NCBI GenBank assembly: GCA_025359915.1
Contig: JANYDE010000162.1
Coordinates: 1-53,404 of the forward strand
Source of the DNA: Chamaesiphon sp. 336R_metabinner_41
GTDB lineage: Bacteria; Cyanobacteriota; Cyanobacteriia; Cyanobacteriales; Chamaesiphonaceae
Length of the DNA stretch: 53,404 nt
Direction: 5' to 3'
Shown piece after piece: positions 28,649-36,621 of this stretch (its first letter is position 1; each line of letters starts with the position of its first letter). The notes beneath the pieces are model-generated. The model was not told where the DNA came from, ran no database searches, and saw nothing but the letters and a program-made list of their open reading frames with translations. Made by a program: the position numbers and the translations under genes.

Positions 28649-30463
28649 ATGACGAACGTTCCTGTTTCGCGAATTCGTAACTTTTCGATCATTGCCCATA
28701 TCGATCATGGTAAATCTACCTTGGCCGATCGATTGTTGCAGGATACGGGTACAGTCAGCAACCGAGAAATGAAGGAGCAGTTTCTCGACAACATGGATTT
28801 GGAGCGAGAGCGGGGAATTACGATCAAGCTTCAGGCGGCGCGGATGAATTATACCGCCCTAGATGGTCAGGAATACGTCTTAAATCTGATTGACACCCCT
28901 GGGCACGTAGACTTCTCCTATGAGGTGTCTAGAAGCCTACTAGCTTGCGAGGGTGCGTTGTTGGTGGTGGATGCTTCCCAGGGTGTGGAGGCGCAGACGT
29001 TGGCGAATGTGTATTTGGCGTTGGAGAGTAATTTAGAGATTATTCCAGTGCTAAATAAAATCGATTTACCTGGAGCGGAGCCGGAGCGAATTCGGGCGGA
29101 GATTGAGGAAATTATCGGGTTGGATTGCAGTGGGGCGATTTTAACTTCGGCGAAGCAGGGAATTGGGATTCAGGAAATTTTAGAATCGGTGGTGCTATTA
29201 GTACCACCACCTAGAGATACGATTAACGAGCCGTTACGCGCTTTGATTTTTGATAGCTATTATGACAGTTATCGCGGGGTGATTGTCTACTTCCGTGTCA
29301 TGGATGGAAGTGTCAAACGCGGTGATAAAGTTCACTTGATGGCGAGTGGAAAGGAATATGTGATCGATGAACTCGGTATTCTTTGCCCGATGCAAGTTCA
29401 AGTAGACGAGCTGCACGCGGGGGAAGTAGGCTATTTCGCTGCGTCGATTAAGGCGGTTGGGGATGCGCGGGTAGGGGATACGATTACCCTCGTCAGTAAT
29501 CAAGCTACTGAAGCTTTACCTGGTTATGCGGAAGCGAAACCGATGGTATTTTGTGGTCTGTTTCCAACGGATGCCGATCAATATCCAGAGTTGCGAGATG
29601 CACTTGATAAATTGCGGTTAAATGATGCGGCATTAAATTATGAGCCAGAAACATCCAGCGCGATGGGGTTTGGTTTCCGCTGTGGATTCTTGGGATTGCT
29701 GCACATGGAAATCGTCCAAGAACGATTGGAGCGGGAATATAATTTAGACTTAATTACGACTGCGCCATCAGTAGTTTATCGAGTAACTGATAATCACGGT
29801 GTGGCAACTTATATCGATAATCCCAGTACGCTCCCCGATCCCAATCATCGTCAAAAGATTGAGGAACCTTACGTCAAACTAGAGATGATTACGCCCGAAG
29901 AATATGTCGGGACATTGATGGAACTCTGTCAAAATCGGCGGGGTGAATTCAAGGATATGAAATACTTGACAAAAGGGCGAACAACGGTAATTTACGAGAT
30001 GCCTTTAGCTGAAGTTGTAACTGATTTCTTCGATCGCATGAAATCAAATACACGCGGTTATGCCAGCATGGAATATCAGATGATCGGCTATCGTGAAAAT
30101 CATCTCGTCAAACTAGATCTAATGATCAATGGCGATCCTGTCGATGCTCTCGCGATGATTGTCCACCGCGATAAAGCCTATAATGTCGGTCGCGCCATGA
30201 CTGAAAAATTAAAAGAATTAATCCCCCGTCACCAATTCAAAGTCCCAATTCAAGCCGCAATTGGTAGCAAAATTATCGCCAGTGAAAATATCCCCGCACT
30301 GCGCAAAGATGTCCTAGCAAAATGCTATGGTGGTGACATTTCACGGAAGAAGAAACTCCTCCAAAAGCAAGCCAAAGGTAAAAAACGGATGAAATCTGTC
30401 GGTACTGTAGATGTTCCCCAAGAAGCATTTATGGCTGTCTTAAAATTAAATAAAGACGGTTAA
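28649..30463 (+). CDS. lepA: Elongation factor 4 (LepA)
   Basis: LepA is a translational GTPase that binds ribosomes and is thought to aid assembly and back-translocation under stress. The 604-residue protein has G1 [14 protein letters not shown] (about 16-29), G2 ERGITIK, G3 [17 protein letters not shown]4 NKIDLPGA and G5 TSAKQGIG. It then has the LepA-specific C-terminal domain with [16 protein letters not shown] and the tail [19 protein letters not shown]. All canonical motifs are intact. It is monocistronic. The distance to the next gene is filled with an inverted repeat and a heptamer repeat. Confidence 0.97.
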
Positions 30464-30631: not shown

Positions 30632-31336
30632 GTGGTTTTAAAAGCAGTTTTATTTGATTTCAATGGCGTAATTATTAAGGACGAATTAATTCATCGAGAA
30701 TTGATTGATGAATTATTATTGGCTGAAAATCTACCACCACAAGGCAAGGAATTTTGGCAAGTATCAGTAGGTAGGAGTGACAGAGCCTGCCTCTATGAAC
30801 TGCTAAAATTGCGGGGAAGATTTGTGACTGATGAATATCTGGATAAACTAATTGCTAAAAAAGCGATCGCATATCGTCAGCGATTGGAGCAATTAGATAC
30901 TTTACCAATTTATCCTGAGGTGGTCGATTTTATCAAACAGATGTCTGAAAGTGGCTATAAATTAGCGGTGGTGACTGGGGCAATTCGATCGGAAGTAGAG
31001 TTAGTATTAGAGCAGGCTGGGATCGATCGCTATTTTGAGACGATCGTACCTGGTGATGAAATTAAGCAGAGTAAACCAGATCCAGAAGGTTATTTATTAG
31101 CAGTCGATCGATTAAATAAATTGTACCCCGATCTGGACTTATTCTCATCTGAGTGTATCGCGATCGAGGATACATTCGCTGGACTTCAAGCTGTCAAATC
31201 AGCAGGGATTCAAGCCGTAGCTATTGCAAATACTTATCCCTTCCACATGCTGCAACGACGGGCAAATTGGACGATCGATCGGTTTGAAGATCTGGAATTC
31301 GATCGAGTCAATAGTTTTTTTGAATCTGTAGGATAG
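30632..31336 (+). CDS. HAD-superfamily hydrolase (beta-phosphoglucomutase-like)
   Basis: The protein is a HAD subfamily I phosphatase or phosphomutase of 234 residues. Motif I is FDFNGVII: D9 is the nucleophile, but N11 replaces the usual second Asp (D-x-D), which in phosphatases acts as general acid. Motif II is AVVTGA, motif III the lysine in KQSKPDPEGY, and motif IV IEDTFAGLQA. The cap domain lies between motifs I and II. An Asn at the second position occurs in a cyanobacterial group of these proteins as I remember it. The substrate is unknown. The start is GTG at 30632, and a heptamer repeat is just upstream. Confidence 0.85.
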   Translation: MVLKAVLFDFNGVIIKDELIHRELIDELLLAENLPPQGKEFWQVSVGRSDRACLYELLKLRGRFVTDEYLDKLIAKKAIAYRQRLEQLDTLPIYPEVVDFIKQMSESGYKLAVVTGAIRSEVELVLEQAGIDRYFETIVPGDEIKQSKPDPEGYLLAVDRLNKLYPDLDLFSSECIAIEDTFAGLQAVKSAGIQAVAIANTYPFHMLQRRANWTIDRFEDLEFDRVNSFFESVG

Positions 31337-31525: not shown

Positions 31526-31789
31526 ATGCAGACAGTAATATGCTTAATTACGCTCATGTTTGTGAATGGGGCTTATCTGTTTATTTCTTTTAATATGGAA
31601 TCAATGATTCCAGATGCTGATAATGAGCAGGTAGAAGAAGTCATTGTTTCCTCAATTATCAATACGGAGTTCGATCCTGCTGATATTCTGGATCTGGATA
31701 TCCTTGATTTTGCTGTTGATGAGTTAGATAACGGCGAGCCAGATAGTTCTGCATCTCGCAGTCCTCATCTGGTACACGATCGCGTCTAG
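31526..31789 (+). CDS. Small acidic protein with N-terminal hydrophobic segment
   Basis: The 87-residue frame starts MQTVICLITLMFVNGAYLFI, either an uncleaved signal-anchor or a signal peptide. The rest is strongly acidic with Asp, Glu and Ile-Leu pairs (DPADILDLDILDFAVDELD). I do not recognise it. It could be an intermembrane or periplasmic acidic protein, or a non-coding frame. A GGGGG with TTAAA stretch is just upstream of the ATG. It is 178 bp before the NRPS-like gene on the same strand, so it could share its regulation. Confidence 0.45.
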   Translation: MQTVICLITLMFVNGAYLFISFNMESMIPDADNEQVEEVIVSSIINTEFDPADILDLDILDFAVDELDNGEPDSSASRSPHLVHDRV

Positions 31790-31967: not shown

Positions 31968-34900
31968 ATGACTTTGAGCGAAAATTTAAAACATTCCCAT
32001 TCCCAGGTAAATGTTCGAGTGGAATGTCTGCATCAGTTATTTGAGATTCAAGCAGATATTCACACGGATAATCCAGCAATTGTCTATCAGTCACAGGAAA
32101 TTAGTTACGGTGAAGTGGAGGCTCGATCGAATCAATTAGCGAATTTTCTCCGCAAACAGGGAGTAAAATGTGGTTCGCGGGTGGGATTGTTATTACCAAG
32201 ATCGCCAGAATTATACATCGCGATTTTGGCAATTTTGAAAGCGGGTGGAGCTTATGTACCCCTCGATCCTGAGTATCCAGCCGATCGAATTGAATACATT
32301 CTAGCCGATTGTGGGATCGAAACCATTGTGACCACGACTGGGTTAGCGGGTGCTAAGTATTTAACAACCACCAATATTGTCTGTGTGGATAGTTGTGTTG
32401 AGGAGTTAGCTTTAGAATCTACCGCTCGGTTGGCGCGAGATTTAGTACAGGTGGGCGAGCGGGATTTAAGTTACGTTATTTATACTTCTGGTTCCACAGG
32501 AAGACCAAAGGGTGTAGAGATCGAACATCGGAGTAGCCGCAATTATATTCAGGTGGTGAATCAAGCGGTTTATCACGTTACTCCACTCGATCGAGTATAT
32601 CAGGGTTTCTCGATCGCCTTTGATGCGTCGGTAGAAGAGGTGTGGTGTACCTTCGCTGCTGGTGCGGCGTTGATTGTTGGTTCCGTGGAGCAGACGCGCT
32701 CTGGGGTCGATTTGGCGTACTTTCTGACAGAGCAACAGGCGACGGTGTTGTCTTGCGTACCGACGTTGTTGGCGATGATGGAGATTGAGGTACCGACGAT
32801 TCGGTTATTGATTCTCGGTGGGGAGCAATGTCCGCAGGAGCTGGCGACGCGATGGTGTAATGATGCGCGGCGGGTGGTGAATACTTATGGACCGACTGAG
32901 GCTACAGTGGTAACAACATGGCATGAATGTCATCCAAATCGAACGATTACGATCGGGAAACCTTTGCCGACTTATCAAGTTTACATCTTAGATGAAGAGT
33001 TGGAGCCAGTCGAGCCAGGAGAGGAGGGAGAAATTCATATTGGCGGCGTTTGTTTGGCGCGGGGTTATGTCAATCGTCCTGATTTGACGGCGGAGAAATT
33101 TATTCCCAATCCGTTTACATTTAGTCCTGAAACTTCGGATAGGTTGTATAAGACGGGAGATTTAGGGATTTGGACAGCCGAGGGAGAAATTCAATTTTTA
33201 GGACGAATTGATGGACAGGTAAAGTTACGTGGTTTTCGGATCGAGCTGTCGGAAATCGAATCGGTAATCATGCAATGTACGGGTGTGAGTGCGGCGGTAG
33301 TTGCTGTTAAACAGGTAGTCGAAATTGACAGACTGATTGCCTATCTTGTACCGAAAAAAGATTGTGAATTAGATCTAGCTGAAATCTGGGATACGATGCG
33401 ATCGCGTTTACCCATTTATATGGTACCTGCGAGTTTAGAAATCGTTGATACATTGCCAACTTTGCCTAGTGGTAAAGTAGACCGAAAAAATTTGCCCACA
33501 CCTCAAAACTTCGGAGCAAATATTCCTGGTAAAATTGCTGGAAGGATACCAAGTAATGATGTCGAACAAAAAATCGCCATCGCTTGGGAAGCAATATTTG
33601 GAACTACGGGTATCTCGATCGATGATGAATTTTTCAACCAATTAGGCGGACACTCATTACTCGCCGCAGTGATGGTATCCAAATTGCGAGAACAGCCACA
33701 ATTTCAGGATCTTGCTGTTGTTGATGTGTATCAATATCCCACGATCGCGCAACTAGCCGCCGCCTTAACTCAACGGTGGCATCAACGTAGTTTAGATCGA
33801 TCCAAATCGCCAGATACATCTCATTCAATCCAAGTAGCTTTACCAACTGTCAAAACAACAAAAGAAAAGACAATTAACGCGCTGTGGGCGAGTCTTGGTG
33901 TTTACCTAATCTACATCATTTATAGTCTTCCCCTGCTAATCCCTGGCTTTGTTTACTATCAACTTGTCGATGCAAATGAAGACCTCAGTCGAATTGTAGC
34001 AGGTGCGATTGCTGGAGCCTTGATCGTGAGTATTTATCCAGCCTTAATTGTCCTCAGTATCGCAGTCAAATGGTTAGTAATCGGTCGATTCAAACCTGGT
34101 AAATACCGATTGTGGAGTACTTATTATTGGCGGTTCTGGTTTGTGCGTCAGGTGCTATCTTTTGCACCAATTTTTCTCCTCACTGGTTCGCCATTGCTCA
34201 ATTGGTATTGTCGGCTGATGGGTGCGAAAATTGGTAAAGATGTCTACCTCGGAACTAGTGATTTTTTAGCTTATGACTTACTCAGTATTGGCGACGGTAG
34301 CAGTATTGGTAGCGATAGCAGTTTAATCGGTTGCGAGGTGGTAGATGGTTGGCTGAAAATCGATCGGATTACCATCGGGAAAGACTGTGTTGTCGGTACA
34401 AATAGTGTTTTGGGGCTAAATAGTCAATTAGCAGATGATACCGAATTAGGCGATTTATCCTATCTCCCAGACACCAAAATTATTCCCACAGGGGAAGCTT
34501 GGAGCGGTTCGCCAGCACGTTATCAAGCATCAACCAGTGCAACCAGCGAGCGATTCCCCTTTGGACAAGCACGACGGGGAATGCCATTCTTATTATCGAT
34601 CGGTTATGCGATCGGTACAATCGTTCAATTACTCGTTCCGGCGATCGCGGCGATGCCAGGATTTCTGCTATGGTGTAAGCTGATTGGCAATGACAATTGG
34701 TATCTATGGCTCTTACCGTCTGCCTTGTTCGGGAGTATGTCTTTCATCGGCGTATTCTGCCTAGAAGTAGTCATCCTCAAACATTTTCTACTGGGAAAAG
34801 TGCGCCCAGGTACCTACCCCCTCCATAGTAGCTTTGGATTGCGCCATTGGTTGATCGATCGATTGATGAGTATGAGCTTAGAGATGATACCGACGCTATA

Positions 34901-35978
34901 TTCTACCCTCTATCTCTTACCCTGGCTGCGAATGCTCGGCGCGAAAATTGGCGCACGCGCAGAAATATCTACTGTCAGTCACTTTACCCCAGATTTAATC
35001 TCGATCGGGTCGGAAAGTTTTATCGCCGACAGTGTATCCCTCGGAGCCAGTCAAGTCAAACATGGATGGCTCCAACTTGCACATACTTATGTCGGATCTC
35101 AAGCCTTCGTCGGCAATGGTGCATTAGTACCAGGACATGGAAATGTTGCCGATAACTGTTTAATTGGCTGTATGTCAGTTCCCCCAACAGATGGTAGCTT
35201 GATGAAACCCGATACTGCCTGGATGGGTTCGCCAGCCATCTACATCCCTCACCGTCAAGTCATCGACGAATATAGTGCAGCGGAAACTTATAAACCCCGT
35301 CGTCGTGTCTATTTACAGCGATTAGCGATCGAATTTTGTCGGGTTACTCTGCCTGGTACCATGCATTTTATCATCCTGCTGATGATGGAAGTCACCATGT
35401 TAAATCTACCAGATTATTTACACTGGTCGAGTATTGGCTTTATTTTCCCACTAATTTATGGTACTGCGTCGATCGGTTCAGCTTTCTTTATTATCGCCCT
35501 CAAATGGTTGGTAGTCGGACGTTATCAACCAGGTACGATTCCCCTCTGGAGTAACTTTGTCTGGCGCACTGAACTAATCACCGGATTATACGAATCAATG
35601 ATTGTCTCTGGCTGTCTGGGCTTCCTGCTCGGTACCCCATTTGCGGCGATAATCCTCCGCCTAATGGGAATGCGGATTGGTACGGGCGTATATATTGAGA
35701 CAACCGACTTTACAGAATTTGACCTGATCTCGATCGGCGATCATGTTACGCTCAATAATGGTTGTACCCTGCAAACTCACCTATTTGAAGATCGGGTAAT
35801 GAAAATGGAGCGGGTGCGATTGGAAGATCGTTGTCAACTCGGAACAGCCGCCGTCGTGCTGTATGATTCGCTCTTAGCCGCTGATGTCTCGTTGCATCCG
35901 ATGTCCCTAATTATGAAAGGGGAACGGGTACCAGCAGCTACTGCGTGGGAAGGAATTCCCGCAAGTCGAGTGTATTAA
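31968..35978 (+). CDS. Pls/PosA-type single-module NRPS, poly-amino-acid synthetase candidate
   Basis: The 1336-residue protein has three parts. Residues about 15-510 are an adenylation domain (YVIYTSGSTGRPKG, NTYGPTEATVV, YKTGDLG, LRGFRIELSEIES, LPSGKVDR). Next comes a carrier domain with phosphopantetheine serine S563 in GGHSL. Residues about 640-1336 hold three similar repeats, each with two membrane helices followed by a left-handed beta-helix acyltransferase-like part (MGAKIGKDVYLG, LGAKIGARAEIS and MGMRIGTGVYIE start them). Pls, the poly-epsilon-lysine synthetase of Streptomyces, has the same plan and about 1319 residues. The A-domain selectivity residues read as D219, A220, E223, S262, I282, G284, T306, V314, V315 and K503 (DAESIGTVVK). 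This resembles a lysine code reported for bacitracin synthetase, from memory. I infer polymerisation of a basic amino acid at the membrane. There is no separate condensation or thioesterase domain. A cytochrome b gene follows 22 bp later. Confidence 0.86.
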   Translation: MTLSENLKHSHSQVNVRVECLHQLFEIQADIHTDNPAIVYQSQEISYGEVEARSNQLANFLRKQGVKCGSRVGLLLPRSPELYIAILAILKAGGAYVPLDPEYPADRIEYILADCGIETIVTTTGLAGAKYLTTTNIVCVDSCVEELALESTARLARDLVQVGERDLSYVIYTSGSTGRPKGVEIEHRSSRNYIQVVNQAVYHVTPLDRVYQGFSIAFDASVEEVWCTFAAGAALIVGSVEQTRSGVDLAYFLTEQQATVLSCVPTLLAMMEIEVPTIRLLILGGEQCPQELATRWCNDARRVVNTYGPTEATVVTTWHECHPNRTITIGKPLPTYQVYILDEELEPVEPGEEGEIHIGGVCLARGYVNRPDLTAEKFIPNPFTFSPETSDRLYKTGDLGIWTAEGEIQFLGRIDGQVKLRGFRIELSEIESVIMQCTGVSAAVVAVKQVVEIDRLIAYLVPKKDCELDLAEIWDTMRSRLPIYMVPASLEIVDTLPTLPSGKVDRKNLPTPQNFGANIPGKIAGRIPSNDVEQKIAIAWEAIFGTTGISIDDEFFNQLGGHSLLAAVMVSKLREQPQFQDLAVVDVYQYPTIAQLAAALTQRWHQRSLDRSKSPDTSHSIQVALPTVKTTKEKTINALWASLGVYLIYIIYSLPLLIPGFVYYQLVDANEDLSRIVAGAIAGALIVSIYPALIVLSIAVKWLVIGRFKPGKYRLWSTYYWRFWFVRQVLSFAPIFLLTGSPLLNWYCRLMGAKIGKDVYLGTSDFLAYDLLSIGDGSSIGSDSSLIGCEVVDGWLKIDRITIGKDCVVGTNSVLGLNSQLADDTELGDLSYLPDTKIIPTGEAWSGSPARYQASTSATSERFPFGQARRGMPFLLSIGYAIGTIVQLLVPAIAAMPGFLLWCKLIGNDNWYLWLLPSALFGSMSFIGVFCLEVVILKHFLLGKVRPGTYPLHSSFGLRHWLIDRLMSMSLEMIPTLYSTLYLLPWLRMLGAKIGARAEISTVSHFTPDLISIGSESFIADSVSLGASQVKHGWLQLAHTYVGSQAFVGNGALVPGHGNVADNCLIGCMSVPPTDGSLMKPDTAWMGSPAIYIPHRQVIDEYSAAETYKPRRRVYLQRLAIEFCRVTLPGTMHFIILLMMEVTMLNLPDYLHWSSIGFIFPLIYGTASIGSAFFIIALKWLVVGRYQPGTIPLWSNFVWRTELITGLYESMIVSGCLGFLLGTPFAAIILRLMGMRIGTGVYIETTDFTEFDLISIGDHVTLNNGCTLQTHLFEDRVMKMERVRLEDRCQLGTAAVVLYDSLLAADVSLHPMSLIMKGERVPAATAWEGIPASRVY

Positions 35979-36000: not shown

Positions 36001-36621
36001 ATGAAATCGATAACTAAAATAAAATTGATCGGACAGCCGAAGATCGTCAAAATTTTCCATTGGGTTAATATTATCAGTCTATTTGGGATGATTGCCAGTG
36101 GATTGCAAATTTATAATGCCAATCCCGTATTTGGTGGACGGGAAGGATTGCATATTCCCTGGCTAATTACTTTAGGTGGCTGGTTGGCTGGTGGCAGAAA
36201 TTGGCATTTTGCAATGATGTGGATTTATGGTTTGAATTTATTAAGTTATGGTATTTATATCTTCTGGACAAGACGATGGCATGATCGATTTGTAGCTGCT
36301 CAAGATCTTAAAGCTCTCCAACTTAGTAGCAATCCCAACCGCCGAAACTATGCTTGGCATCGGATTGTTTATACCAGTATTATTCCAATTTTATTACTGG
36401 CGATCGCTAGTGGTTTATCCATGTATCAACCCGTCCAATTTTATTGGTTATCCAGTTTGTTTGGAGATTGGCAAGCACTACGCACTGCTCATTTCATGAC
36501 AGTTCCATTGGTATTAATATTCACATTCATTCATTCTAGTTTAGCCTTGGGAATTGGCAAAGGTAGAATTTCTACTGCATTTCTAAATCTAAAAGCCCCA
36601 ACATTAACTGATGCCGAATAA
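36001..36621 (+). CDS. Cytochrome b (prokaryotic b561/YdhU-like) membrane subunit
   Basis: This 206-residue protein has four membrane segments, at about 18-36, 66-90, 124-141 and 161-182. Histidines in or next to them are H20, H69, H164 and H178, positions suited to bind two hemes b as in cytochrome b561 and the membrane subunits of formate dehydrogenase, thiosulfate reductase and molybdenum oxidoreductases. The usual partner is a molybdopterin or Fe-S subunit, and none is next to it. It starts 22 bp after the NRPS stop and so is probably co-transcribed, though a link in function is not known. Confidence 0.78.
   Translation: MKSITKIKLIGQPKIVKIFHWVNIISLFGMIASGLQIYNANPVFGGREGLHIPWLITLGGWLAGGRNWHFAMMWIYGLNLLSYGIYIFWTRRWHDRFVAAQDLKALQLSSNPNRRNYAWHRIVYTSIIPILLLAIASGLSMYQPVQFYWLSSLFGDWQALRTAHFMTVPLVLIFTFIHSSLALGIGKGRISTAFLNLKAPTLTDAE

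Follow-up and report, generated by a model that had tools for sequence, protein, structure and literature searches.

Which polymer, if any, is made by a single-module synthetase encoded in a cyanobacterial genome, and is it the antimicrobial polymer poly-lysine? The question is raised by a gene, here called pls, on a stretch of 53,404 nucleotides from Chamaesiphon sp. 336R_metabinner_41 (Cyanobacteriota; assembly GCA_025359915.1, contig JANYDE010000162.1, positions 1 to 53,404 of the forward strand), hereafter the window, which a first-pass annotation had described as a Pls-type synthetase with a lysine-like specificity code. Our analysis suggests that the gene probably encodes a stand-alone epsilon-poly-L-lysine synthetase, and the best reading is that this enzyme would represent a lineage separate from Pls of actinomycetes. 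The parts of the gene and its product are as follows.

31968..35978, forward strand: pls, Pls/PosA-family single-module synthetase of 1336 residues with adenylation (A) domain, carrier (T) domain and membrane terminal domain (open reading frame (ORF) call, Pfam, NCBIfam)
32040..33494, forward strand: A domain, residues 25-509 (Pfam, NCBIfam, alignment)
33573..33767, forward strand: T domain, residues 536-600 (Pfam PP-binding)
33861..34553, forward strand: terminal repeat 1, residues 632-862, two membrane helices followed by a hexapeptide-like stretch (hydropathy, profile-profile comparison)
34563..35267, forward strand: terminal repeat 2, residues 866-1100, two membrane helices (hydropathy, profile-profile comparison)
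35301..35975, forward strand: terminal repeat 3, residues 1112-1336, with a less distinct helix pair (hydropathy, profile-profile comparison)
35772..35795, forward strand: QTHLFEDR motif, residues 1269-1276 (alignment of 26 proteins)

The pls ORF is uninterrupted and starts with ATG. Pfam recognised the A domain as AMP-binding (residues 25-367) and AMP-binding_C (residues 429-503), and the phosphopantetheine serine of the carrier, S563 (GGHSL; codon 33654-33656), is kept in all 26 aligned family members, so that the A domain, the T domain with S563 and the length of the protein were borne out as first described. The terminal domain (residues 648-1332) matches NCBIfam TIGR02353, 'Pls/PosA family NRPS', scoring 627.2 bits (cut-off 423.1). 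This profile evidence places the gene in the Pls/PosA family of cationic homo-poly-amino-acid synthetases, in agreement with the claimed Pls-type membership. Condensation-domain signatures, for which the first-pass annotation had advised a check, did not appear: the Pfam scan of the window protein gave neither a condensation nor a thioesterase domain, a single A and T domain preceding the terminal domain, and the HHxxxD[GA] condensation motif is absent from all 26 aligned Pls/PosA-type proteins.

The evidence for lysine as substrate comes from the binding pocket of the A domain. Alignment places D219, A220, E223, S262, I282, G284, T306, V314, V315 and K503 at the ten code positions, confirming the letters DAESIGTVVK of the earlier reading. 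The lysine code of bacitracin synthetase, DAESIGSVCK, lies two residues away. All ten letters recur in the actinomycete proteins L091 and L094, each of which has an M1 metallopeptidase gene directly after it, as well as in three further actinomycete proteins. In 7wew, the solved A domain of an epsilon-poly-lysine synthase, nine of nine covered positions match, as read by eye via the L094 alignment, the tenth position (lysine) falling outside the printed L094-7wew alignment. The pocket thus agrees with that of a confirmed Pls at every position covered, a feature of Pls membership, and the lysine-like specificity gains stronger support than the first-pass annotation had given it. In the accessible part of PMC8117764, a pocket the same as or highly similar to that of Pls is regarded as strong evidence for lysine, and a pls-peptidase operon is described; the accessible part of PMC10522769 ties code position 2 to the chain length of the substrate, with Ala for lysine, Met for ornithine and Phe for diaminobutyrate (DAB) or diaminopropionate (DAP).

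Comparative analysis of the terminal domain with hhalign revealed that its three repeats are mutually homologous (profile-profile E 5.6e-39, 1.3e-44 and 1.1e-31). Hydropathy (19-residue window, threshold 1.6) flagged a pair of helices in each of the first two repeats. In the third, residues 1158-1184 were flagged, and the peak near 1126-1144 reached 1.49, below the threshold. Two membrane helices thus appear clear in repeats 1 and 2 and no more than probable in repeat 3. Residues 1203-1235 were flagged as well, as were residues 433-451 in the A domain, the latter surely falsely. The Pfam Hexapep match at residues 787-816 is weak (E 6.3e-5; 22.9 bits, under the cut-off of 27), and a left-handed beta-helix (LbH) part belongs to the model of PosA's terminal domain published in PMC10522769. 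An AlphaFold2 model of residues 619-1336, built from four sequences, had a mean predicted local distance difference test score of 32.3 and was used for no fold search. Of the three units of helix pair plus LbH part that had been proposed, the repeats themselves stand, with helix pairs in two of them; the third pair is weaker, and the LbH part is suggested by the sub-cut-off Hexapep match and the PosA model. H1271 of the QTHLFEDR motif is the sole histidine of the window's terminal domain conserved in 26/26 homologues, and Q1269, D1275 and R1276 are likewise invariant among these aligned family members. H1271 together with D1275 and R1276 is therefore proposed as a candidate catalytic site.

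In the mechanism that we propose, the A domain would activate L-lysine as the adenylate, and the lysine would be loaded on the phosphopantetheine arm of S563. The membrane terminal domain, with its three fused repeats and one invariant QTH..EDR site, would join the lysines via the epsilon-amine and may also pass the polycation out of the cytoplasm. The Chamaesiphon genome holds one gene of the phosphopantetheinyl-transferase family (PF01648). Homologues of pls in Sphingomonas and Rhizobium are directly followed by an annotated 4'-phosphopantetheinyl transferase gene (L085:6450-7007 and L092:6507-7124). Five more AMP-binding domains occur on one contig of the window's own genome (G000:C74 34021-63779), in frames of 1107-2696 residues, and probably form a separate peptide cluster.

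The distribution of pls was followed by counting TIGR02353 matches only if above the cut-off or at E 1e-25, because with a limit as loose as E 0.001 some 319 of 386 phylum genomes match, nearly all with short, sub-cut-off hits that are probably ordinary hexapeptide proteins. A control of the stricter counting on 14 known genomes gave one positive, Corynebacterium glutamicum. With two candidates per genome scored in the phylum and order samples, 3/386 phylum genomes exceed the cut-off, namely the window's own, G035 and G042. Within the genus, six of nine genomes are above the cut-off and eight match with 248 bits or more. The family, comprising Chamaesiphon and its sister genus, matches at E 1e-25 or better in 10 of 11 genomes, including all seven with a completeness of 90% or more and a contamination of 5% or less; the sole miss, G393, is 82% complete. 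Three of these ten positives lack an intact full-length copy: in G386 and G392 the copy is broken, and in G390 the match is to a C-terminal piece. The order sample contains 13 matching genomes among 388, three of them among the 377 outside the family (G042, G542 and G571, the last with 286 residues of the terminal domain ended by the contig edge and an unreadable pocket). The protein of L009, a locus from a Chamaesiphon metagenome bin, shares 91% identity with the window protein over 1336 residues, and the three named homologue loci all come from two Chamaesiphon metagenome bins. A lone 44-residue stretch in another cyanobacterium (G103, L082:7087-7218) resembles the end of pls and is possibly a relic.

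Among the ten genomes of the family with a match, the pocket could be read in nine, and it is DAESIGTVVK in 9/9 of these copies, the tenth letter of the G392 copy sitting in its second reading frame. Outside the family the pockets read DAESIGTVIK (G035), DFEYIGTVTK (G042) and DFEYVGTVTK (G542). The ratio of nonsynonymous to synonymous substitution rates (dN/dS, NG86) was 0.065-0.143 in six pairwise comparisons (0.065 against G389), in which dS was 0.41-2.06 and the widest pairs were near saturation. The pls gene is under purifying selection.

Around pls the window holds the following genes.

28649-30463: lepA, upstream of the HAD gene (locus marker)
30632..31336, forward strand: HAD-family hydrolase, upstream of pls (Pfam, NCBIfam)
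31526..31789, forward strand: acidic ORF of 87 residues, upstream of pls (ORF call)
36001..36621, forward strand: cytochrome b561-type gene, 22 bp downstream of pls (Pfam)

The order lepA-HAD-pls is common to the window and G391, and G388 has lepA-HAD with pls remnants. The gene is indeed followed by a cytochrome b, here of the b561 type, rather than by a polymer-degrading gene, as the first-pass annotation had remarked. Candidate partners of pls were considered and rejected. Of 13 loci compared, only the remnant locus of G388 matched the 87-residue acidic ORF, considered as a neutralising partner; the interval from HAD to pls in G391 gave no match, and the other loci do not contain this stretch. 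Cytochrome b561, as an operon partner, had no match in 17 other loci, of which several stop at pls or close to it, and a transporter partner is not conserved from locus to locus. After pls there stand an MFS_2 symporter in G389, a similar-looking ORF in G391 (judged by eye) and an HlyD-type adaptor in G390. The posA gene is a single-gene operon according to the accessible part of PMC10522769. A full-length PosA-type synthetase with the pocket DMEHNGTVSK was also observed on L102 (2-2344 and 3875-7960), an IMG/VR contig filed as viral, where it adjoins genes resembling, by eye, Mu-type phage portal, head and virion genes; this contig is probably a prophage beside a host gene.

Several observations weigh against the reading of pls as an epsilon-poly-L-lysine synthetase, among them those on descent. 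Trees were built for the A domain and the terminal domain (21 rows) and, with five rows added, for the A domain only (26 rows), the ten pocket columns being left out of the A-domain trees. The references came from one plasmid collection, from which 15 of 69 matching records were taken and 14 placed; Embleya L096 (whose match spans two reading frames), G392 and G390 were excluded, and five Pls-pocket proteins, of which two adjoin an M1 peptidase gene, stand in for a biochemically confirmed full-length Pls. In the 21-row tree the A domains of Chamaesiphon group with the DFEY/DFEC proteins of DAB/DAP type (96/93), and in the 26-row tree all eight rows of the family fall into a single clade (96/94), next to the DFE group (97/95). 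The A domain falls outside the actinomycete Lys-code clade in both trees, and a single Lys-code A-domain clade was rejected (p-AU 0.0147 with 21 rows and 0.00284 with 26 rows). For the terminal domain such a clade was borderline (p-AU 0.0525, 21 rows), with Chamaesiphon firmly joined to no group. These placements are to be read with the long branches of Strep_NBC00060, G035 and G542 in mind, with a warning of two long branches meeting. Thus clustering with Pls, which had been expected as support, was not borne out, and the clustering with enzymes of a different product that had been named as refuting is seen in the A-domain tree and not in the pocket.

Over the 30 of 34 positions mapped in the shell of the pocket, agreement with the window is 21-22 for actinomycete Lys-code proteins versus 16-21 for the DFEY/DFEC type; once the code is removed, it is 12-13/21 versus 13-16/21. 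Since the shell without the code is no closer to the Lys-code clade, the likeness to Pls resides in the code letters and not in the remaining shell, and the lysine code common to both branches may be either convergent or retained from an ancestor. Further points on the same side are that pls is broken in two genus-mates, G386 and G392, and that two other genomes, G387 and G388, hold remnants of it beside a full-length copy. No Pld-like or epsilon-poly-lysine-degrading peptidase gene was recognised beside pls in the Pfam and NCBIfam neighbour scans, and no conserved neighbour was found in the loci compared, neighbours varying where visible.

The placement of the A domain bears on the idea that the product is a polymer of a shorter diamino acid (DAB or DAP), or a mixed polymer. 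The sister group of the A domain is of the DFEY/DFEC type, predicted to make such polymers, and one of its members, L088, adjoins genes for diaminobutyrate transaminase and aspartate kinase. Nevertheless, the bulky Phe at code position 2, linked to short substrates in the accessible part of PMC10522769, is replaced by Ala in 9/9 readable copies of the family, and no precursor gene was recognised by Pfam and NCBIfam among the window neighbours scanned, which makes this product improbable. We regard as somewhat less probable again epsilon-poly-beta-lysine or a polymer of another basic amino acid such as arginine. The accessible part of PMC10522769 describes a beta-lysine type pocket, DGESISVVNK, with Gly at code position 2, and a homologue with modest arginine activity, but the window pocket is unlike both DGESISVVNK and DSECYGGVTK of the arginine-using homologue. 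In addition, lysine 2,3-aminomutase (TIGR00238) had no match in the window's own genome, in a search whose control was positive in 9 of 14 genomes, 8 of them above the cut-off.

The damaged copies, in turn, might point to a recently acquired or decaying gene of little function, the least probable of these alternatives. In G386, a Chamaesiphon genome of three contigs, an insertion sequence interrupts pls (L073:7132-8471); it shows inverted ends of 18 bases, a DDE transposase and, by eye, an apparent 5-base target duplication. In G392 a small insertion carrying stops breaks the gene. G387 has a full-length pls reaching the contig end plus a deletion remnant, and G388 has two short remnants at its lepA-HAD locus and its full-length copy elsewhere; the remnants L075:10583-11408 and L077:9752-10009 keep only short pieces from near the N terminus and from the C-terminal end. 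Against decay stand the low dN/dS, the matches in 10/11 family genomes, the grouping of the eight family rows in one A-domain clade and a G+C content of 0.461 for pls versus 0.438 for the window.

We therefore retain an epsilon-poly-L-lysine synthetase as the probable identity of the pls product. If the product is confirmed, poly-lysine synthesis gains a home in photosynthetic bacteria, and the presence of the lysine pocket on two separate branches becomes useful for reading specificity across the family. The natural role of such polymers would then become testable, since the gene occurs in nearly every family genome sampled and is broken in two of them. More tentatively, and with somewhat less than even confidence, we suggest that Chamaesiphon and its sister genus evolved or kept the Pls-identical lysine pocket apart from actinobacterial Pls, and that epsilon-poly-lysine might be a clade-wide trait, perhaps serving as a cationic glue or a deterrent in films attached to rock.

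Cyanobacterial homologues with lysine-type pockets are already in print, in clusters 45 and 52 of the accessible part of PMC10522769, the species being unnamed in the text. The matches listed included no paper on such an enzyme from Chamaesiphon, in a search that left most subscription journals outside; the unbroken code letters matched no paper either, a search that can miss codes printed with spaces, as in PMC10522769. Among known systems, synthetases of the gamma-poly-diaminobutyrate or beta-poly-diaminopropionate type are the A-domain sister group (46.2-48.2% A-domain identity for L084, L086 and L088) and differ in the Phe at code position 2 and in the precursor genes beside L088. PosA, the delta-poly-L-ornithine synthetase of Acinetobacter, has the same architecture and QTH..EDR motif as the window protein and differs in its pocket, DMEHNGTVSK, with an A-domain identity of 39.0%. 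Pls-like proteins L090, L091, L094 and L097 show 27.6-30.1% identity to the window protein in the terminal domain and 37.4-39.0% in the A domain. In the A-domain tree the window protein branches apart from the actinomycete Lys-code proteins, and no peptidase gene was recognised adjacent to pls; with Pls of Streptomyces the window protein has in common the A-T-terminal domain plan, and with 7wew (9/9 readable) and the Pls-like L091 and L094 (10/10) the letters of the pocket.

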